From: Paracyclopina nana
Taxonomy: Eukaryota > Arthropoda > Copepoda > Cyclopoida > Cyclopettidae
Length of the DNA stretch: 64,000 bases
Assembly (NCBI GenBank): GCA_019096065.1
Contig: JAGUCH010000009.1
Location: 3,544,001-3,608,000, forward strand
Direction of reading: 5' to 3'
This document shows, in pieces, positions 20,806 through 59,781 of this stretch. The notes under the pieces are model-generated. The model was not told the DNA's origin and searched no databases. It worked only from the letters and a program-made list of their open reading frames with translations. Position 1 is the first letter of the stretch. Every line of letters starts with the position of its first letter. The position numbers were made by a program, and so were the translations under genes.

Positions 20806-21940
20806 GATTTTCTCTACCAGTAACCGAAAATCCCTGGTTAGGTTTCAATTTCCAAATAGTTCTCAGTTTATTTCTCTACCAAGACGAAATGTAAACAAAT
20901 ACACTGGGAAAAAAATTAACCAGGGGAATTTTTTTCCCGGAAAAAAAATCACCTGGCGAATTTTTTTCCCACACAATTCGTAACCTTGAGTAGCCACTTT
21001 GTGCGGGAGTTGCTGCCGGGTGTGGAGACGCTGCTGGGTGCGGGAGATCGGGAGATGCTGCCGGGTGTGGAGATGCTGCCGGGTGTGGAGACCCTGCCGG
21101 GTGGGGGAGACGCTGCCAGGTGGGGGAGCCTCAAATTGCCGTCTTGGTCTTGAGCAGCCTCAATTTGCAGTTAAAGACGCTGCTGGGTGCGGGAGACAAT
21201 GCCGGGTGAGGGAGACGCTTCCAGGTGCAGGAGACGCTGCTGGGTGTGGAGACGCTGCCGGGTGCGGGAGATCGGGAGATGCTGCCGGATGTGGAGACGC
21301 TGCCGGGTGTGGAGACGCTGCCGGGTGTGAGAGTCGCTGCCAGGTGGGGGAGACGTTGCCGGGTGCGGGAGACGCAGCCGGGTGGGGGAGACGTTGCCGG
21401 GTGCGGGAGATCGGGAGATGCTGCCGGGTGTGGAGACGCTGCCGGGTGCGAGAGACGCTGCCGGGTGCGAGAGACACTGCCGGGTGCGGGAGACGCTGCC
21501 GAGTGGGGGAGCCTCAAATTGCCGTCTTGGTCTTGAGCAGCCTCAATTTGCAGTTAAAGATGCTGCTGGGTGCGGGAGACAATGCCGGGTGAGGGAGACG
21601 CTGCCGGGTGCGGGAGACGCTGCCGGGTGTGGAGACGCTGCCGGGTGCGGGAGATCGAGAGATGCTGACGGGTGTGGAGACGCTGCCGGGTGCGAGAGAC
21701 GGTGCCAGGTTGGGGAGACGCTGCTGGGTGCCGGGGAGACACTGCTGGGTCTTGAGCAGTTTCAATTTGCAGGTTTTGTTACACTGCACTTGCAGCGTAA
21801 TCAGTAATGGCGTCAATATGTTGTCAGTGACTCAGCTGAGATCCGCTACTGGGATCAAAGTATGATGGATCGAAATAGTAGGTCGAGCTTGTCTTGGAAT
21901 TTCAGCAAACCTGGGATTTTCGGTTACTGTTAGAGAAAAA
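20806..21940. mobile_element. Inverted-repeat unit carrying a GC-rich minisatellite
   Basis: Left arm (20806-20855) and right arm (21892-21940) are imperfect inverted repeats sharing CAGTAACCGAAAATCCC and flanking words over 40-50 nt. Between them lie AT-rich direct repeats (20889-20984, GGGAAAAAAATT-like words) and the minisatellite. No transposase. The arms are seen; the transposon interpretation is inferred because I could not define a target duplication. Confidence 0.5.
21003..21765. repeat. GC-rich minisatellite with a 383-bp higher-order repeat
   Basis: The basic unit is about 15-18 bp, GAGACGCTGCCGGGTGYG with variants (GAGATCGGGAGATGCTG, GGTGGGGGAGACG). A larger block beginning GAGCCTCAAATTGCCGTC recurs at 21126 and 21509, a 383-bp offset, and its TCTTGAGCAG...CAATTTGCAG part appears once more near 21748. 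Long open frames on both strands here result from the repeat lacking stop codons and are not genes. The block is very GC-rich against AT-rich flanks. Confidence 0.85.
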
Positions 21941-25359: not shown

Positions 25360-25372
25360 CCCAACCAGAAAT
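25360..25372 (+). repeat. Left terminal inverted repeat of the 8.6-kb transposon
   Basis: CCCAACCAGAAAT, the exact reverse complement of 33940-33952. The subterminal DNA holds an ACCGTTTCACGG word at 25413. Confidence 0.65.
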
Positions 25373-27012
25373 CTGGAGTACCTATTTTTCCTAAAAACCA
25401 CCGTTTCACGGGATAGTTTTCCCACAGTATGAAATATGTCTTTATGTAACGTTTATGTACATAGCACTGTGTGAAAATAGCCTTCACCTTATAGTTACTA
25501 AGTTTTTAAATGTTAACATAACCTTGCATATCACTGAAAGAATTTTGTATTTTTCACCTTCCTTGTACTTTGCCATTTTTCCATAGTTATCACAACATAA
25601 ATGACTTCAACTTTACCTTGAAATGATGCAATTTTTTATAACTTTTCCACTGATCATGAACGCCCAATATAATACTATGTTATCATGCAACATATTGATT
25701 AATGGATCAATGTCTAAATTCGTCAGTTTTTTGGCAGTGGCATTATGCAATCACTTGACCATGAAACCTACTCAATTATTCAATATTTATTCCTAGTATT
25801 TTTCTTGAAATAAGTGTTCAGTGATATCATGTGAAAATTACTAAATAACCTCTCTTTTTCTTCAGGTGAATTGGCAAATACGCATGTCTTTTTTGGAGAA
25901 TTCACCATGGTAATATTGCGATGTTACGGCGTGATCCCACCGTGAATAAGTGATGAATTGTAAAAATAAACTGTTTATTACGATATGCAATTGCCGAATC
26001 AAATGTCATCTTTCAATAATTAATAATATGGTACTTTCATGAATTATAGCTCTCAATAAATAATTTTCATATTGCAATTCCACTGTTATTAATTTTGCTC
26101 ATTGGTGAGCATTATGCCTGATGTGTTGTGGAGTCTAAATCATGTCACATTGCAATTCATCCATTATGAGTCTAGTCCTCTCCTCCAACGGCCTTTAAAA
26201 GAGGAAAAGGTATTTAAGAAAGGTTTCATATGCTATGGGTAAGAATGTGGGACTTACTGGTGGAGTGTCAATGTCAGATTGCGCGGAACTTGGATTGCTA
26301 GGTGCTTCTGCCGTGATTTCATCATTATTGTTGGATTCACGCTCCTTTTCTGAGGCATCTTGTCCTTCAAGTTGGCCCTCATGCTCAGCAGTAGGTATGT
26401 CATGCTCTGCTTCTGTATCTTTGCCTCTTGGCTCATCTGCAGTCTCCTTCTCTGCCTCAGTCTCTTGACCAGCCTCGTCGTCACTGTTGCCATCAAGTTC
26501 TTGGCGAATGAGGATGTCATCTTCACCTTCCTCGCTTGTCTCGCCACTAGACATTTCAATGTCATCTTCATCAGAAGTTTCTTCATCAATATCGGCGGCC
26601 TAAAATTATGCAGTAATTAGAGCGTGCATACAACGTTGACTGAGTAATTACCTTTTTAACCTTTTTTCCTTTCTCCACTCGCCGTCTCTTCTTCTTGGCT
26701 TTCTCTTTGTTTTCAAAGACTTCTTCCTCAGCCTCATCTCCAGTGTCTATAACCATTGCATCGTTGGGACGAGCTAGTCGTTGCCTTTCTGTCTGGGAAG
26801 TGATGAGCCTCTTTCCTCTCCTTGATCAGTTCCCTTACTGATCCCCTTCTGGCAGATGACGTCGAAGCCACAGGTGGACTGGTCTCTCCAAAAACGTTAG
26901 TTTGTGGCCCAACTTCATCAGGTGACATAGCAGCCCTGTCTACTGGGAGAAGCGTCCCTCTTTTGTACTCCTCCTTCTTCTCTTGCAAGACTGCTTTGTA
27001 GATGGCGTCAAC

Positions 27013-27063
27013 CTAAGGAAATGATGCAGTTTACGATGTAATCACTATGAGATCACGACTCAC
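27013..27063 (-). repeat. Intron of the transposon accessory gene, possible repeat unit
   Basis: 51-bp GT-AG intron containing TTTACGATGTAATCACTATGA (27030-27050 on the plus strand); a weaker relative of the 55-bp intron family. Confidence 0.45.
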
Positions 27064-27354
27064 ATTTTTGACTTGGCAATCATTGCTGAACTTGAAGTTG
27101 TGGTACTTGTCGCCGTTGTCCCTGGCAATGTCAATGATCTGGCCAATCACCTCCTTTGCACTCATTTGGTCGGCACCTACATTGACTCTGAGTGACATGA
27201 CGGCCTCTTGTGGAGGGAGAAACTTCACCTTCTTCTCTTTTTTCCTCAAGCCATTCAACTCCAATTCAAGCTGATCCTTTAGCTTATCACGATTCAGCAT
27301 TGCCGCACGATGTTCCTCAGGAGTAGCAAATTTAGTTCCAGGTGGAAAGCAATG

Positions 27355-27409
27355 CTGAATAAAATTATTAGTAACTTTAACGTGATTTTACCATGAATTG
27401 TAAAATTAC
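27355..27409 (-). repeat. 55-bp intron of the repeat-derived family
   Basis: In gene sense it runs GTAATTTTACAATTCATGG, then TAAAATCACGTTAAAG, and ends TATTCAG. TTTACAATTCAT and AAAATCACG recur in other introns and in subterminal DNA at 25924-25970. Confidence 0.6.
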
Positions 27410-27683
27410 CTTGTTTGCTTCAAAGAAGACTCGGTCACCTACGTAGAGGCTCCTGAAGACATCATCCATGTTCTTTGACATGTTGTAGATGTGGCCGATG
27501 TATGTGGTCTTGGTGTTGTGAAACAAATCCGAAAACCCACCTCTAATGATCTTGACACTTTCATTTGTGTCCTTACCGGCGATGGTCACTTTTTTCTTAA
27601 GAATTTCAAGAACAGCTGGAATGATGACCTTAATCACCCCTTCAGGAATCGGCCTGTTGATCACTTTAAGTGCTCTGATGCTT

Positions 27684-27738
27684 CTGTAAAAAGTATATAG
27701 TTTTTTTACCGTGTTTTGACTGTAAACCTTATGATTAC
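27684..27738 (-). repeat. 55-bp intron of the repeat-derived family
   Basis: In gene sense it contains TTTACAGTCAAAACACGGTA and ends ATACTTTTTACAG, closely following the order of words in the introns at 28150-28204 and 28942-28997. Confidence 0.65.
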
Positions 27739-28149
27739 CCTTTGGAATCTCCAAGTAGCAAATGCGACAACGGGAATGGTCCAAAGAGAAAGTGCATTAC
27801 ACCATTGCCAATAGACTTGTTGAGCGTCCTTATGCTTTTGCAAGTCAATCTGTTTTGCAATCAATGGTGGCAGATGCTTGTGGATGTAACTGCAAGCAAG
27901 GAGAATATCTCCAAACTCGCCAATCAAATCCAATGGGAAGAATGACAACAGGCTGCTAGCAACTGCCTCCTTCCTTTCTGCTGCCTGGTCACCAACAAGC
28001 TTCAATCTGTCGTAGATTTTGCCATTAGATGAGACAATGTCATTGTAGGACTTCTTCATCGCCTTTTGCTCTTCCTTCAGCTCCTTCATTGCTGCATACA
28101 ATTTGTATTGTCGCCTGGCAATTTTCTTATTTTCAGATTCGATAAATTC

Positions 28150-28204
28150 CTAAGTATTTATACCGTGATTACGTCATGTACTGTGAAATTTGCTAATGTT
28201 TTAC
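28150..28204 (-). repeat. 55-bp intron of the repeat-derived family
   Basis: Shares the 19-nt word AATCACGGTATAAATACTT exactly with the intron at 28942-28997; ends directly in AG after ACTT. Confidence 0.75.
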
Positions 28205-28941
28205 CTTCATTTTCTTATCACGTTCCTCCAAGAACTTCATGAATTCGCCAAAACTTCCTCCAGCAATTCTTGGCGAGGCCCTCTAGCAGTTGAAGTACCT
28301 GCTGCCATTTTCTCAATTGTTCCAGCTACCTGGCCTTCATCTGAAGTTGGTGAGCCTCTGAATGTGCGATGTGCTTCATTAGCTGACTCATCTTCTTGAT
28401 GAACCTCTGCAAAAGTTGTCAGCAGTTGTGCATTCTCTGCTGATGGCCCAGACCTTGGAGAGCGCACACCAAAAGTGGCATCAATGATTGGCGGTCCTTC
28501 TGCTTCAATGGTATCAGGTTCCTCCGTAGTTCTGGGGTTTTTAGCTGGTGTACCTGCTGACGGCGAAACAGATTCTGGAGAATCATTTCTGCTCCTCTTG
28601 TTGGTTCGTGGAGGATTCTTTGGCGGCTCAAGTTTCTTTTTCTCCACAGTGCGACTGCTACGAACAGAAGGCACGGTGACAATATGCAGTGGTGATATTT
28701 TTAATGGCGTAAGTCTGGCACGTCCACGTCCTCGCCCTGATTTTGCTGGCGTCCCCTTTCCTTTACCACCCTTGGCAGCTGCAGCAGAAGTGGATGGGGC
28801 AACGTCAGGAGCCTTAGTTGTTGACCTTTTCCTTGGGCTCTGTCTCCTTGATGCTGGCTTTGTCTTCTTTGTTGTATCCACAAAGTCATCCTCAGATTCT
28901 TGCTCTGACTCCTGAATCCTAGTTGGAGCCGTCTCTTTCAG

Positions 28942-28997
28942 CTGAAAAAGCAAAGTATTTATACCGTGATTTTACAGTAAATTGTGCAATAACTTAC
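28942..28997 (-). repeat. 56-bp intron of the repeat-derived family
   Basis: In gene sense it contains TTTACTGTAAAATCACGG followed by TATAAATACTT; the last 19 nt of that block match the 28150-28204 intron exactly. Confidence 0.75.
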
Positions 28998-29703
28998 TTC
29001 TTTTTCTTGCTTTGGCAGCAGCAATCTTCAACATTTGCACTGAGGCTGGCTCAATTTCTGGCTCCTTAGCCTTATCTGCTGCATCCGATTGCTCAGTGGA
29101 GTCATCAACGATTTTGCTCCTAGTAGCATGCACTCTGGCTCACGTGAAGAGGCGACAAAGTCATCCTTGGCTGATTTCCTAGGAGCGTGGTAGTATTTCC
29201 TGCTGACTTTCTCCTTGTAGCGTACCACCATGTCGTCGTATCTCTCATGTCGCTTTCGTCCCAGTAGTGTTTCTTATCTCAGCATTGAGATCTACAGCAT
29301 GTATTTTGAAACAAATTTATCTTCCGTTCCTAAAAGTAAATTTAACATTTACGGCGTAATTACTATGTTAAAACGTTTTAAACAAAATAATTATTTTCAA
29401 AAAAGAAACTCACCTTTCTCAATACGAAAATACACTAAAGTGCATTTCGACGCCATCCATTGTAGCATACTTTCTGTAGCTTCTCTTCAATGCATCCATA
29501 TGACTTGTAGGGTCGAATCCAATGACTTCGGAGATCGTTTTTCCATCCTCAAAAACTGTTGTCGACGGCAGCAAGCTGAACACCGGATCATCGTCAAGAC
29601 GTGAAATGACAAGCTGGTCATATTGACGCGTGGCCTCATCTTCATGTGGTGAAGTGGACTTGCTTGTATGAATGCTGCCAATTTCACTTGGTGAACGTGA
29701 CAT

Positions 29704-29731
29704 TTCACGGCGTTTTCACGGCGTAATCAGT
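29704..29731. repeat. Motif pair in the divergent promoter region of the transposon
   Basis: Two tandem ACGGCGT words (TTTCACGGCGTTTTCACGG, then CGTAATCAG) lie immediately beyond the start of the minus-strand gene; a further copy (AATTACACCGTGAAAAA) is at 30020, before the plus-strand gene. Placement between divergent starts fits a promoter or transposase-binding role; this is inference. Confidence 0.45.
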
Positions 29732-30074
29732 GTTTATTTTTCAGGGTCACGTCGTGCGGCGCAGTAGGCAGTGATGTGCTCTCCTCGGCAGGTGAGGCGT
29801 CGGACTGAGGATTTCTCAGCGTGCGCGCACGCCTCATATAGTACGCCGTGCCATTTGGACGGACATCATCCAAACCAACCGGATGTCACGCAACCCACCT
29901 ATAAAACCAAACAATTACTAAAAAACAACGATAGCGGGAAGTAATGCCATTTATTAAAAATTATTTAAAAATGTTTGCACACAGTTTAAGCCTACTTTTA
30001 AAGACTTAAATTTTAATGGTAATTACACCGTGAAAAACACATAAATCTACTACGTCGTCATTTTTTTTAGAGCA

Positions 30075-33000
30075 ATGCCGAAAGTGAAAAAAAAGAAAGA
30101 TGAAGGCTACAATGACAGCACATTCACTTCCACCCCTGCTGCTCGCATGAATCGTCGACGACAAAGGCAAAAGAAAGAGCTTGATATCTTAATTCGTGAA
30201 TTATCTGAGAAATCAAAGAAGCTTGGCTTGGCAGCTAATAATATCATCAACATTGAGGATGATCCAATACCAATTGAAGTTGACCTCATTACGAAGGTTT
30301 CAAATGGATTGAAAAATGTCATCAATTTTGAAGACACACAGTTGCAGCCCAAAGTGCTAGAAAAGAGATCCAAGCCAGCAGCAAGCGTTGTTAATGAAGC
30401 AAGAAAGCTTATTCAGGAAGTTGACAATTTACCACACATTCACGTTACAATCACTGACGTAGCACGGCAGAATATTTGTTTGACTGATGTTCTCGACCCA
30501 GTCACAAATAACTTCTACATTGTTGGCATTGATGATCCATCTTTCCCACTATTCTATGAAGTTGAATATGCTTTACTTGAAGACTTTGCCACTAGCCCGG
30601 AGAAATATGATAAATACATAGAGTGGTCAAAGTGTATCACCAGTTATAGGGTTGCATTTGAAAATGCGTTTGCCAACAAAGGCCGTGCTAAAAGGAAAGT
30701 TGAACGTGAGCAGCAGGAGCAACTGTCAGAGGAGCCAATCACAAACTGGCAGAACAGCTTGGATATTGGCAATTATGTCCAATCAAGCAACCAACTGGAA
30801 GTGGACAACAATGACGATGAGTGGATACCTCCATCGCAACATGATCCACCATCAGCCAGTGTGCAGCTTGCAGAGAAAAGTATCCGTGATTACTCCGTGA
30901 ATGAGCCGTTAAACGTGCAATCAGCTCAAGATCCGTACTCGGTACTAGGGATGCGTTGGGAGAATCAAGTCGAGGTTGTTGATATTGACCATCTACAAGA
31001 TGTCTCTACATCTTCATCAGATGTGTCCTCTGATAATGTCATGACTACTGAAAGTGATGAAGAATATGCCTTTTCAAGAGATCACGGTTGAATTTCAATC
31101 AAAGCAATAATGCTGATCCGCTGATACCAGATGCTAATGGAGACAGCAATGATGATAGCATCAATGTGAGCGATGGCAATGAGGAGGCGGAAGAAGCTAT
31201 TGAAGGCAATGAGATGGATGATTCAATTGTGTCAAATGTAAGTTCTTTTACAATTTATGACATTTTTACGGCATAATCACGGTCTATTGTAGGAATCAGA
31301 CAATCCAGAAGATTATCCGTTTGAAATTGAGTTTGATGATGACGCTTTGTGCAACGCATTCAGCAGCATGTCAATTAGGAAGTTCACCCTTACAGAACTC
31401 ATTCGTGCCCAAAAAGAGGAGGAGAAATTGGAAGACTTGCTAGCAAGAAATGATCTGTGTGCAAATAGGTTCCTGTCTATCATTTGCAGACATGCTGTGA
31501 GTCATGAAGCAGCAGACGATCTATGGAATTTTGTGCGTGCCATGAATCTTGATCGAAAACTTAAAAGCTTCAAAACAATCTACAACCATCTCAGAGATCA
31601 GTTGCCCAATATCCACATGGCGTTTGAATTGTTGGACAAAAGTAACAACGAAATATTCCATCATAGTGGTAATGCGTTTTACCCTGAAAAAACCTACCCT
31701 TCACGGGATTATGAAAAGTTGAGTGAATGGACAAGCTCAAAGATTGACGAGATCTGGGAATTCCATAAAAAAAACCATCCACAACTAGCAAGGAGATTCA
31801 AGAAAAGGTATGACCTTGCAGTTGATGAGGTCCCGCTTTCCAACTCAGGCATTGACAAAATGGATCTTGTGTGTGTAAGGTTCTTTGGCTGCCGTTTTGT
31901 CTATTTGTCAGGTGTTTTGTGTGCAGACAGGACACTTGAAGCAATTGAACACATGTGTTGAGAATATGATTGTGGATGCAAAGGAGAAAGGATTCAAACT
32001 GAGCATGGTCATTGCAGATGCTGTAGCAAGAGCTAAACTGAAATGTCTCAAGGGTCACGCAGGTTATTGTTGCTGTGATCGCTGCAAGTGTGTTGGCGAT
32101 TATGACAGAAAAATGGTGTTTTTACCAAAGACTATGGCTTATGAAAAGCGGACAATGCAAAAGTGGCTGAGACATGTCGAACTCGTTGAAAAGAACAAAG
32201 ACAGTGGACTACCTCCAGATGATGCACAAACATTTGGTGTCACAGGCAGATCTCCATTTTGTCAATAGAGGGATTTGAAATCATTGAGGAAATGCCTATT
32301 GAGCCCATGCACAATTTGTTGCTAGGCATGGGTCGACAAATTGTCCTTGAAATCATTAATCCAAGGAGATCAGGCAGTGACAGGTACAGTGCGAGAACTA
32401 AGGACTTAATGTTCCGCTTTGACGAAAGTTGGAAAAAAATGCGAATACCCTCTGAGTTCACTCGTCGTCCTAGAGGCATGCGTTTGGGGTTAGTGCACTA
32501 TAAATCATGCGAATACCTTTCAATCATTGTGTGTGGATTCTTGGCATTTGGAAAGGCGCTTGTAGGAGAAGAAAATTGCAAGTTCAGGAAGATCTGGTAT
32601 TACTTTACCTACCTTGTGAGGGCAGCATTTTTTGATGACGAACTGTATCGTCAAATATGCCAAAAGGTGAACTTGTCTGAAATGATGCAGTCATTCTATT
32701 TCATGTTTGAAAATGTTTTTGGAAAGCAAAAGTGCTCCTTCAACCTTCATCTATTCTCTCACTTGAGAGAAACTCGGAGACGCCATAGATTGAGCCAAAT
32801 TTCAGCTGAGCCCTTTGAGGCTTACTACGGATTCATCAAACGTGTTCTGGTCAACAATACAAAAGCTTCAGTAAACAGGCAATGCAAAAGGCGTTTATTG
32901 CAAATATACGGAGTCACAACTGTGAAAAGAACCATCAACATCAACAAAGAAGATGACACGTGCCAACAGACAAGACAACCTCATCTACACTAAAGATAGG

Positions 33001-33237
33001 ACATTCTATGAAGTGGTAGGCCAGAGAAACAAGGACGAGTACAAGTGCAAGCGCATTGCAACAGCCAAGTACCGCAACAAAGATGTATTCAGTCTTGACT
33101 TCTCCATGGTTGGTGTTGAGCGATTCAAAAAGTATGAAAAAGACGTCGTCATTGTCAAAAAGAAAGACATCGTTGGTAAGGCAGTGAAGGATGGCCAAGT
33201 AATGATCGCTGTGCCAATGGATGCACTTCATTCTTAA
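30075..33237 (+). pseudogene. DDE-like transposase gene, frame-broken
   Basis: The coding path runs from ATG 30075 with introns at 31238-31292 (55 bp) and 31875-31926 (52 bp), and possibly 30880-30924 (45 nt, frame-neutral). The N-terminal part is basic (PKVKKKKDEG) then acidic. The catalytic part contains LAVDEVPLSNSG, VIADAVARAKLKCLKGH followed by the cysteine cluster GYCCCDRC, EPMHNLLLG, and AEPFEAYYGFIKR near the end; these correspond to the D, D and E blocks of a large animal transposase group that cuts at terminal inverted repeats. The frame shifts by one base near 31090, 32262 and 32960, so no continuous protein is made as read. The DDE assignment is from motif layout, not from a search. 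Confidence 0.65.
31238..31292 (+). repeat. 55-bp intron of the transposase gene, repeat-derived family
   Basis: GTAAGTTCTTTTACAATTTA at the 5' side, then TTTACGGCATAATCACGG and a TTGTAG acceptor. It shares TTTACAATT and AATCACGGT with introns of the opposite-strand gene, though it belongs to a different gene. Confidence 0.7.
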
Positions 33238-33865
33238 TCAATTGTTCTTTAGTGCATTATCAGGCAGATTACGGCAAAAAAACTGCAATATTATGATCAC
33301 AAATTCATGCCGTTCATCCAACTATTCAGTTACAAATATTACTACTTCTTGTTTTGTGAGCAATGAAATCTAATGCATACCCAATAATAGCACTGCTCAA
33401 TAAGGTATTCAACATTATAATTACCATTCTATGTATTTCTACAACAAATAAATGTTGTCAAATGAAATGAAGAGCAATATGTCCACAGGTACTTATACCT
33501 AACATTTGCAAAAAACGGGTAAATCACTGAATAATTATGTCATCAAAATGAAAAATAAATTATATTCGTAAAACTTTAAGTTGTCGTTCTTTTGATTGAA
33601 GTCAATATGAAGTAAGTGCATATCAGAAATTTCACTCATTTTTGTCATTGAGCAGTCAAAAAAACATTGCTACGAGAAACAATTATTTCAATAGTATTTC
33701 CATGATCACTTACTGAACATATCACAGTAAGAATTATGGGAGGATTACTTACACATTAAAAAAACGTTTTTTTGAAGTTATGTATGCTAAGTAATATTCT
33801 TGTAATCATGACGTAAATACGGAGCACAATTTTTGGTCTTGCAAAGTAAGATTTATTCAGTTATG

Positions 33866-33926
33866 ACACGCTGTAATTACTATGTAATCACGTAATTGAA
33901 ATAAATCAACGGTGTAATCATGGTAA
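33866..33926. repeat. Right subterminal motif cluster of the 8.6-kb transposon
   Basis: Three copies of the GTAATCACGG-type word: ACACGCTGTAATTAC (33866), TGTAATCACGTAATT (33883) and ACGGTGTAATCATGGTAA (33909), ending 14 bp before the terminal repeat. Clustered subterminal repeats usually bind transposase; the role here is inferred. Confidence 0.55.
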
Positions 33927-33939
33927 GCTGACTTGGAGA

Positions 33940-33952
33940 ATTTCTGGTTGGG
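33940..33952 (-). repeat. Right terminal inverted repeat of the 8.6-kb transposon
   Basis: ATTTCTGGTTGGG, the exact reverse complement of the left end. Confidence 0.65.
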
Positions 33953-56592: not shown

Positions 56593-57526
56593 GCGCAAGC
56601 TTTTTGTTTCAGTAGGCAACTGAAAATCGCATCGCCACTAGCATTTCGCTACTACAGCCAGCTTTCAAACTGAATTTGCCACACTGCACCAGAAGTAACT
56701 TTTTTCAAAGTGGTTTGTGGAAAAGTTTCCTTTTACCACTAGCTTCCATGGAAAACTAGAGTTTCAGTTTTGTCGCAAACTTTTTGTTTCAGTGGGCAAC
56801 TGAAAATCGCATCGCCACTAGCATTTCGCTACTACAGCCAGCTTTCAAACTGAATTTGCCACACTGCACCAGAAGTAACTTTTTTCAAAGTGGTTTGTGG
56901 AAAAGTTTCCTTGCAGCACTAGCTTCCATGGAAAACTAGAGTTTCAGTTTTGTCGCAAACTTTTTGTTTCAGTGGGCAACTGAAAATCGCATCGCCACTA
57001 GCATTTCGCTACTACAGCCAGCTTTCAAACTGAATTTGCCACACTGCACCAGAAGTAACTTTTTTCAAAGTGGTTTGTGGAAAAGTTTCCTTGCAGCACT
57101 AGCTTCCATGGAAAACTAGAGTTTCAGTTTTGTTGCAAACTTTTTGTTTCAGTAGGCAACTGAAAATCGCATCGCCACTAGCATTTCGCTACTACAGCCA
57201 GCTTTCAAACTGAATTTGCCACACTGCACCAGAAGTAACTTTTTTCAAAGTGGTTTGTGGAAAAGTTTCCTTTTACCACTAGCTTCCATGGAAAACTAGA
57301 GTTTCAGTTTTGTCGCAAACTTTTTGTTTCAGTGGGCAACTGAAAATCGCATCGCCACTAGCATTTCGCTACTACAGCCAGCTTTCAAACTGAATTTGCC
57401 ACACTGCACCAGAAGTAACTTTTTTCAAAGTGGTTTGTGGAAAAGTTTCCTTGCAGCACTAGCTTCCATGGAAAACTAGAGTTTCAGTTTTGTCGCAAAC
57501 TTTTTGTTTCAGTGGACAACTGAACT
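56593..57526 (+). repeat. 180-bp satellite array, left arm
   Basis: Monomer starts fall at 56761, 56941, 57121, 57301 and 57481, exactly 180 bp apart, with a truncated first copy from 56593. Copies are almost identical except for two variants at one site, TTTTACCACT (copies 1 and 4) and TTGCAGCACT (copies 2, 3 and 5). Confidence 0.95.
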
Positions 57527-57884
57527 ATATTTATTAATGTCATATTTTATTTTGTCAGCATTTTGGGGTAAACTTTTCATTTTTTTGAACATATTGAGTA
57601 ATAGTCAATGTTTTTTGATTTCATCAAATGAACATGCAAAAAATGAGATAAAATTGAAATTTTATTATAAATATGATATGTGATGAGCATTTTTTATTTC
57701 TGTCATCATTTCTATCATCATACCATCATTGTTGGACCATTTTTAGGGTAGTTTTACTGTGAGTGCATCATAGTTTGATTAATTAATAAAGCTTTCTCTT
57801 TCTTAAGACTAAGACATATCTTAAGTGAAAGAAAGTTAGAAAAGCTAGAAAGATAGTTTACCTATGGTGGATTCGACCCCATGA

Positions 57885-59728
57885 AAGTTACTTCTGGTGC
57901 AGTGTGGCAAATTCAGTTTGAAAGCTAGCTGTTGTAGCAAAATGCTAGTGGTGATGTGATTTTCAGTTGCCCACTGAAACAAAAAGTTTGCGACAAAACT
58001 GAAACTCTAGTTTTCCATGGAAGCTAGTGGTAAAAGGAAACTTTTCCACAAACCACTTTGAAAAAAGTTACTTCTGGTGCAGTGTGGCAAATTCAGTTTG
58101 AAAGCTGGCTGTAGTAGCGAAATGCTAGTGGCGATGCGATTTTCAGTTGCCTACTGAAACAAAAAGTTTGCGACAAAACTGAAACTCTAGTTTTCCATGG
58201 AAGCTAGTGCTGCAAGGAAACTTTTCCACAAACCACTTTGAAAAAAGTTACTTCTGGTGCAGTGTGGCAAATTCAGTTTGAAAGCTGGCTGTAGTAGCGA
58301 AATGCTAGTGGCGATGCGATTTTCAGTTGCCCACTGAAACAAAAAGTTTGCAACAAAACTGAAACTCTAGTTTTCCATGGAAGCTAGTGGTAAAAGGAAA
58401 CTTTTCCACAAACCACTTTGAAAAAAGTTACTTCTGGTGCAGTGTGGCAAATTCAGTTTGAAAGCTGGCTGTAGTAGCGAAATGCTAGTGGCGATGCGAT
58501 TTTCAGTTGCCTACTGAAACAAAAAGTTTGTGACAAAACTGAAACTCTAGTTTTCCATGGAAGCTAGTGGTAAAAGGAAACTTTTCCACAAACCACTTTG
58601 AAAAAAGTTACTTCTGGTGCAGTGTGGCAAATTCAGTTTGAAAGCTGGCTGTAGTAGCGAAATGCTAGTGGCGATGCAATTTTCAGTTGCCCACTGAAAC
58701 AAAAAGTTTGCGACAAAACTGAAACTCTAGTTTTCCATGGAAGCTAGTGGTAAAAGGAAACTTTTCCACAAACCACTTTGAAAAAAGTTACTTCTGGTGC
58801 AGTGTGGCAAATTCAGTTTGAAAGCTGGCTGTAGTAGCGAAATGCTAGTGGCGATGCGATTTTCAGTTGCCTACTGAAACAAAAAGTTTGCGACAAAACT
58901 GAAACTCTAGTTTTCCATGGAAGCTAGTGCTGCAAGGAAACTTTTCCACAAACCACTTTGAAAAAAGTTACTTCTGGTGCAGTGTGGCAAATTCAGTTTG
59001 AAAGCTGGCTGTAGTAGCGAAATGCTAGTGGCGATGCGATTTTCAGTTGCCCACTGAAACAAAAAGTTTGTGACAAAACTGAAACTCTAGTTTTCCATGG
59101 AAGCTAGTGGTAAAAGGAAACTTTTCCACAAACCACTTTGAAAAAAGTTACTTCTGGTGCAATGTGGCAAATTCAGTTTGAAAGCTGGCTGTAGTAGCGA
59201 AATGCTAGTGGCGATGCGATTTTCAGTTGCCCACTGAAACAAAAAGTTTGCGACAAAACTGAAACTCTAGTTTTCCATGGAAGCTAGTGGCAAAAGGAAA
59301 CTTTTCCACAAACCACTTTGAAAAAAGTTACTTCTGGTGCAGTGTGGCAAATTCAGTTTGAAAGCTGGCTGTAGTAGCGAAATGCTAGTGGCGATGCGAT
59401 TTTCAGTTGCCCACTGAAACAAAAAGTTTGCGACAAAACTGAAACTCTAGTTTTCCATGGAAGCTAGTGGCAAAAGGAAACTTTTCCACAAACCACTTTG
59501 AAAAAAGTTACTTCTGGTGCAGTGTGGCAAATTCAGTTTGAAAGCTGGCTGTAGTAGCGAAATGCTAATGGCGATGCGATTTTCAGTTGCCCACTGAAAC
59601 AAAAATTTTGCGACAAAACTGAAACTCTAGTTTTCCATGGAAGCTAGTGGTAAAAGGAAACTTTTCCACAAACCACTTTGAAAAAAGTTACTTCTGGTGC
59701 AGTGTGGCAAATTCAGTTTAAAAGCTGG
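57885..59728 (-). repeat. 180-bp satellite array, right arm, inverted
   Basis: About 10.2 copies of the same 180-bp monomer in reverse orientation. Both site variants seen in the left arm recur here in mixed order (GCTGCAAGG in the copies at 58201 and 58921; GGTAAAAGG or GGCAAAAGG in the rest). The innermost copy (57885-58020) is the most diverged; the others are nearly identical. Confidence 0.95.
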
Positions 59729-59781
59729 CATGAAACATTTCAAGTCACACACTGACTATAAAGTTTGTGACAAAACTTTAA

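Follow-up and report, generated by a model that had tools for sequence, protein, structure and literature searches.

Phased tandem motifs along a two-gene DNA transposon of Paracyclopina nana: probable recognition sites of an element-encoded protein

The element and its genes

The stretch analysed here, hereafter the window, comprises 64,000 nucleotides of the copepod Paracyclopina nana (assembly GCA_019096065.1, contig JAGUCH010000009.1, forward-strand positions 3,544,001 to 3,608,000). It harbors a complete DNA transposon with two genes in opposite orientation, one encoding a transposase-like protein and the other a partner, ORF2 (Table 1), whose introns share short words that probably represent recognition sites of a DNA-binding protein. 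Inverted ends of the CCCAACCAGAAAT or CCCCACCAGAATTTCT type, together with a 2-bp target duplication, occur in 11 of the 13 elements examined; for E11 (L062) and E14 inverted ends were not found within the stretches examined.

The genome (92 Mb in 10 contigs) yielded 150 scored transposase relatives from 189 candidates, and 15 matches to one exon of ORF2. Two copies on another contig are 99.3–99.4% identical to the window copy. In what follows E1 denotes the window copy, E2 and E3 the near-identical copies, E4a, E5, E6, E7 and E8 diverged families of the same motif class, and E9 and E14 more distant families; the E9 type occurs at three places in the genome, one of which was analysed. Within the window's class, the last transposase exon is 65–74% identical among the five families with open frames, and intron positions are common to families at this distance. 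Related transposases form a large lineage in this genome, with many open frames of 600–950 codons.

Reading frames of the window copy are disturbed relative to its relatives in the transposase exons (30075–33237) and at the end of ORF2 exon x4 (27739–28149), and the copy may therefore be inactive. No Pfam family scored above the cut-off in 10 pieces of the window (best E 0.015, unrelated) or in 13 transposases (best E 0.052), and a PDB search with the transposase profile gave no convincing match (best E 0.23). Invariant columns of the transposase include conserved acidic residues and a C-H-C-C cluster, and its PMHN motif has a likeness to CMC/KDZ transposases.

Introns share a phased motif

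All eight introns predicted in the window copy carry the same motif, made of phased 11-bp units; the arrays resemble runs of two or three ACGGTGTAATA-like units. A first-pass annotation of the window had named five of these introns, four of 55 bp and one of 56 bp (iA to iE), and these predicted introns hold up, all being GT..AG with boundaries backed by homologous exons in diverged relatives. Its count was short by three (iG, iH and iJ), which carry the motif as well, and the 55-bp length, correct for the four window introns, is not a fixed property: across seven families lengths range from 50 to 65 bp at seven positions and from 56 to 119 bp at the first ORF2 intron, and the 56-bp intron itself measures 54 bp in two sister copies. 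A further candidate intron at 31875–31926 was rejected, since relatives code straight through it.

The five introns first named are alike well beyond their composition, with a mean pairwise local score of 22.7 where dinucleotide shuffles give 14.4 (sd 0.8; z 10.3, none of 500 as high), and for all eight window introns the corresponding z is 10.2. Chance similarity of short adenine-thymine (AT)-rich introns is refuted by these shuffles, together with the 46 of 48 introns recognised by models of other families (see below), and has practically no probability left. A repeat search grouped four introns with the copy at 25930–25969 and paired the fifth (31246–31281) as an inverted repeat. The 19-nt word reported as exactly common to two introns is AATCACGGTATAAATACTT, found in those starting at 28150 and 28942. 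Genome-wide it has six exact matches, two in each of the three near-identical element copies, and allowing two mismatches adds two matches elsewhere, against two for the reversed control.

Periodicity was assessed by autocorrelation in 48 introns of the six families of this class; near-identical or sister copies (E2, E3, E4b, E10) and the introns of E11 were left out of the intron statistics. The strongest peak by far falls at lag 11 (z 14.1), and it is detectable in the eight introns of the window copy alone (z 5.2). The lag-11 z is −2.5 in the exons of the element, 1.7 in the 52 kb of the window outside it, and 3.1 to 4.4 in its other non-coding parts, the middle part peaking at lag 10. Taken singly, 29 of 55 introns (E9 included) have an 11-bp period at p<0.05. 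In the DNA 3' of the transposase at 17 of 19 more distant loci, the aggregate z is 7.7 at lag 11, with lag 12 next at 4.0.

Motif training on non-coding DNA alone collapsed for the E1–E8 class and was replaced by training with one site per intron, which gave a 24-bp matrix that was tested by leaving out one family at a time. Scored with a matrix from which their own family had been withheld, 46 of the 48 introns exceed the 95th percentile of shuffled sequences (z 8.3–13.9 per family). Matches, counted as overlapping windows so that separate sites are fewer, reach 28 per kb in introns, 4.1–6.5 per kb in promoter and terminal non-coding parts (limits approximate for E6, E7 and E9), 1.34 per kb in exons (50 vs 2.4 shuffled) and 0.13 per kb outside the element (7 vs 5.0 shuffled). 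A strict array pattern run against the whole genome gave 12 matches, all 12 inside known elements.

Sites outside introns, their orientation and spacing

As the first-pass annotation had pointed out, introns of both opposite-strand genes carry the shared unit, and so do promoter and terminal DNA (Table 1). Among the copies it had listed as non-coding, those in the promoter and at the right end stand, the one at 25924–25970 is weak, and that at 29348–29370, where the motif is indeed present, lies within intron iJ. Beyond that list, copies are found in coding exons, such as the array in exon 1 of the transposase gene. Of the 55 peaks labelled exonic, five belong to the arrays at the start codon of ORF2.

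The exonic copies are kept beyond what the protein requires. In five families (E2 standing in for E1, and E8, with a broken frame, left out), the transposase exons contain 13 matches before the intron against 1.2 in synonymously shuffled sequence, and 19 after it against 3.3, with none of 300 shuffles as high in either case. At four exonic sites, chosen for having matches, 15 of 20 family-by-site cells differ from synonymous recoding at p<0.05.

Orientation relative to the gene varies between introns: of the 48 best arrays, 31 are sense and 17 antisense. All six families agree in it at five positions out of eight, with one exception at the other three. Sites of the window's class follow one another at intervals of about 380 bp (median gap 354–389 bp), with a coefficient of variation of 0.22–0.52 against 0.76–0.79 in simulations (P 0.0000–0.024 in all seven copies of the six families). 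The intron-free last transposase exon of E5 continues the series, with gaps of 423, 414 and 394 bp. Free orientation, sites kept within coding sequence and regular spacing indicate that the signal acts at the DNA level.

Table 1. Positions of the transposon, its genes, predicted introns and motif arrays in the window
Feature	Position	Strand	Remarks
Complete DNA transposon	25360..33952		8593 bp; 13-bp inverted ends CCCAACCAGAAAT; GG target duplication on both sides
Weak left-side motif copy	25930..25969	-	63% identity to reference copy; below score 7 in motif scan
ORF2 partner gene	26195..29703	-	eight exons in model; no Pfam above cut-off; frame disturbed in places
Intron iG	26600..26651	-	phased array, sense
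Intron iH	27013..27063	-	phased array, antisense
Intron iA	27355..27409	-	phased array, sense; 55 bp
Intron iB	27684..27738	-	phased array, sense; 55 bp
Intron iC	28150..28204	-	55 bp; array sense here; the other five families of the class have it antisense
Intron iD	28942..28997	-	phased array, sense; 56 bp
Intron iJ, first intron of ORF2	29330..29413	-	array antisense
Array at ORF2 start codon and upstream	29702..29736	+	
Array upstream of transposase start codon	30011..30036	-	
Transposase-like gene	30075..33237	+	one intron; no Pfam/PDB match; frame disturbed in places
Array in coding exon 1 of transposase gene	30880..30914	-	synonymous test pooled over five families
Intron iE, transposase gene	31238..31292	+	phased array, sense; 55 bp
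Exonic site s1	31676..31699	+	score 8.7
Exonic site s4	32892..32926	+	score 12.5
Array directly after transposase stop codon	33266..33289	+	
Right subterminal arrays	33863..33927	+	

Families with their own words

Three motif classes were distinguished among the eight families analysed. E9, whose last exon is 56–61% identical, has the corresponding genes and introns with a different word, TatTctcAcAATATATTtattG, which occurs 12 times in its non-coding DNA against 2.7 in shuffled sequence (threshold 7) and 2 to 5 times in other families. Its introns (n=7) have a lag-11 z of 5.7 and a motif training score of 97 against 62–73 shuffled. The first ORF2 intron of E9 (L060) contains two exact GGATAAACTCA 11-mers followed by a partial third, the cleanest 11-bp phasing seen. 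In E14, 38% identical to E2, every one of the six introns analysed carries a third word, agCaATtcATgGccaAaTCAAAGT (lag-11 z 4.6; training score 123 vs 63–73 shuffled), with 8 occurrences against 0.9 in the family's own non-coding DNA (0 of 200 shuffles as high) and 0 to 4 in other families. The E9 iH and E14 iB introns lie outside these intron lists. Both families keep the gene layout, and their own words are enriched also in their own promoters and ends. Relatives with unrelated introns at the same positions, which the first-pass annotation had named as evidence against its repeat-unit proposal, do exist in these two families, and the differing word is in each case again the element's own.

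Matrices of the three classes score their own introns at z 12.5–19.4 (in-sample, E9 and E14 included) and those of other classes at 0.4–6.5. Within the window's class, introns from different families score 18.3 when they occupy the same position and 17.6 when they do not; the former being hardly above the latter, the pattern is that of concerted intron evolution inside a motif class. E6, E7 and E8 seem to share a sub-motif.

A site-binding protein as the likely reader

The explanation that we favor, with a probability of roughly 0.64, is that the words shared by the introns are 11-bp-phased tandem recognition sites of a DNA-binding protein with sequence specificity, which the element itself most likely encodes. 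The first-pass annotation had already guessed at a protein-binding repeat, and this part of its proposal gains support, binding itself being a deduction. Three words coexist in one genome, each enriched in its own elements among those examined, which makes a single host factor unlikely as the reader and favors an element-encoded one. ORF2 appears to be the better candidate, with the transposase also possible. Exon x4 of ORF2 is 60% identical within the class and 29% identical to that of E9 (ratio 0.48), while the same ratio is 0.67–0.74 in three further ORF2 exons and 0.85 in the transposase; this argument is weak, since it is a single comparison.

Sites placed in the subtermini, the promoters, nearly every intron and some coding stretches, about every 380 bp, would mark the element along its whole length, with introns barely longer than the arrays they hold housing sites without constraining the protein. 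Bound across these sites, the protein of the element would recognise and coat its own family, and the most plausible effect would be an altered chromatin or silencing state over the length of the element, as exerted by VANC on VANDAL elements of Arabidopsis. When the reader changes, the sites would change as a set, and the introns inside one element would evolve in concert.

Several observations weigh against this interpretation. The reversed control of the strict genome-wide pattern gives 8 matches (positions not located), close to the 12 of the pattern itself, so that only the places of the latter are telling, rather than their count. The ORF2 pieces have no Pfam match above the cut-off, AlphaFold models of two ORF2 exons are of low confidence (predicted local distance difference test scores of 66.0 and 62.3), and the x4 comparison depends on E9 as the one outside family and on a frame-disturbed piece of E1. 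In E9 no sites were detected in the long last exon (0 vs 0.8 expected) and the spacing lacks regularity (P 0.81), though the first transposase exon contains 4 sites against 1.1 (7 of 300 shuffles). Exon tests of E14 are mixed (4 vs 1.2, 7/300; 3 vs 0.5, 2/300; third segment not significant), while its sites are regularly spaced (P 0.0036). When words shared between introns and non-coding DNA are compared, six of eight families have their maximum with their own DNA, and E7 and E14 do not; when introns are compared with introns, five of eight families score best against themselves, E8 ties, and E6 and E7 score lower against themselves than against sister families. Finally, 17 of the 31 sense arrays begin exactly 10 bp from the donor, the other 14 at 12–28 bp, and part of the donor-to-array arrangement must accordingly be fixed. 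The register is found at iA and iB in all six families, at iG in four and at iE in one, and at iA, iB and iG taken together it amounts to 16 of 18 arrays. It hints at a link to splicing or a shared origin, and could reflect a common intron origin, a splicing constraint or room for a branch point; protein binding does not account for it.

Origin of the introns and other explanations

Two orders of events are conceivable: introns came first and later housed the sites, or sites came first and some were then intronised. The latter, in which spaced arrays were partly turned into introns as site and coding function constrained each other, is compatible with a site-binding reader and is a tentative proposal, rather unlikely as matters stand. 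It is worth testing, as the exonic arrays in the last exon keep the common spacing, as in the intron-free exon of E5, and the codons at exonic sites fit the motif beyond the need of the protein in most cells. No position was seen, however, at which one family has an array in an exon and another has it in an intron.

An origin akin to that of introners, in which a short repeat unit carrying its own splice sites multiplied inside the element and thereby created the introns, had been the central proposal of the first-pass annotation. The close likeness of the window introns and the words they have in common with non-coding copies fit such an origin, and the 10-bp donor register, shared by most families at three intron positions, keeps part of it alive. 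The simple model is nevertheless disfavored, and we consider it improbable, because the best array is antisense in more than a third of the introns and other sense arrays are variably placed, because the positions are old and common to diverged families, because the same arrays occur in exons, and because two genome pattern searches, which also bear on its suggestion to look for the unit in host genes, gave no clear host copies.

Little probability likewise attaches to a structural signal, such as DNA bending or nucleosome positioning, that needs no sequence-specific reader. AT-rich and GC (guanine-cytosine)-richer half units do alternate at 11 bp, and the spacing of about 380 bp could match two nucleosome repeats; introns of a family, however, share long exact words (19 nt in E1), and these are replaced by others in E9 and E14.

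That the words are splicing signals of very short introns, either branch points or intronic enhancers, is very unlikely. The introns are mostly 50–65 bp long, ATAAC-like words lie near some acceptors and the donor register is in line with it, but antisense copies, copies in promoters, ends and exons, and the use of different words by E9 and E14 within one host all argue against a role in splicing.

Implications

If recognition sites are indeed what the introns hold, intron sequence in this transposon is set by selection at the DNA level, and introns at different positions evolve in concert. An animal genome would then contain a transposon-specific marking code in which three motif classes coexist, the co-evolution of protein and sites and a possible anti-silencing function would become directly testable, and the conflict between coding and site function would supply a concrete reason for new introns being favored. 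A bolder extension, which we hold to be less likely than not, is that an animal lineage has evolved a ruler for self-recognition over the full length of the element, with family-specific arrays at intervals of about two nucleosomes, a fast-evolving partner protein that keeps chromatin open and introns that arose or were retained as neutral housing, as an independent and more regular counterpart of VANC.

Other repeats in the window and genome

The window also contains two tandem arrays of a 180-bp unit at 56594–57524 and 57884–59729 (5.2 and 10.3 copies, 97% matches), whose consensus units are by eye mutual reverse complements and form an inverted satellite pair. A degenerate GC-rich tandem repeat of period 19 (28.7 copies) lies at 21175–21750, in a stretch with a GC content of 0.50 and a GC skew of 0.185. 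Repeats of TTAGG, the arthropod-type repeat, are abundant in the genome, and the matches listed lie close to either end of contig C1. In the same genome a short TTAGGG run (11 matches) is present near a contig end at C8:8704–8787.

Comparison with known systems

Searches of the open-access literature, with subscription papers mostly beyond their scope, returned no title or abstract opening that describes this arrangement. Several known systems share parts of it. CACTA/En-Spm elements are two-gene elements with repeated short sites near their termini that are bound by a partner protein, TnpA; their ends begin with CACTA or CACTG, they generate a 3-bp target duplication and their transposase is of the TNP2 type. 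The present element resembles them in its two genes, its repeated short terminal sites and its site-binding, here putative, partner, and differs in that the sites span the whole element, the ends start with CCC and the duplication is of 2 bp.

Galileo, also a DNA transposon of animals, carries several sites for the THAP-domain protein that it encodes, but, as the title of the report states, these sites lie in long terminal inverted repeats (PMC3688188). Introners, in the parts of their description drawn on here, resemble the present case in that they too are short, mutually similar introns with a connection to transposable elements. Some introner families co-opt splice sites, and a fixed relation of splice sites to the unit is not required of every family; introners insert into many host genes, whereas the arrays described above have no clear host copies, occur in both orientations and occupy old shared positions (PMC9860276).

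The closest parallel is offered by the VANDAL elements of Arabidopsis and their VANC proteins, as far as the excerpts considered of two reports describe them (PMC5735166, PMC10398659). VANC21 localises to introns, intergenic regions and terminal DNA of VANDAL21, where it binds a short motif, and the targets of VANC6 carry other tandem motifs. Common to both systems are short, often tandem motifs in introns, intergenic and terminal DNA that are tied to the element's own protein or, in the present case, probably so, and a motif that differs between related families, as do the three classes in eight families found here. A figure legend describes the VANDAL transposase as far better conserved than its partner protein, which we count as a further likeness (PMC5735166, PMC10398659). 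VANDALs differ in belonging to plants and in having a different transposase. Binding of VANC21 to exon probes was much weaker, whereas the present element also keeps sites in exons, and neither its 11-bp phasing nor its spacing of about 380 bp appears in those excerpts (PMC5735166, PMC10398659). VANC homologues carry DUF1985 and DUF287 domains (PMC5735166); neither these nor a MULE-type transposase gave a Pfam match in the 10 window pieces or the 13 transposases, and the present element is therefore not a VANDAL member and at most a functional analogue. Anti-silencing, with loss of silencing marks in trans, is a feature of VANC; for the present element it would be, by analogy, a candidate function and the most similar one known. 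The kind of system is already known from the VANDAL/VANC principle of element-specific dispersed motifs, and the present element is a variant of that principle.

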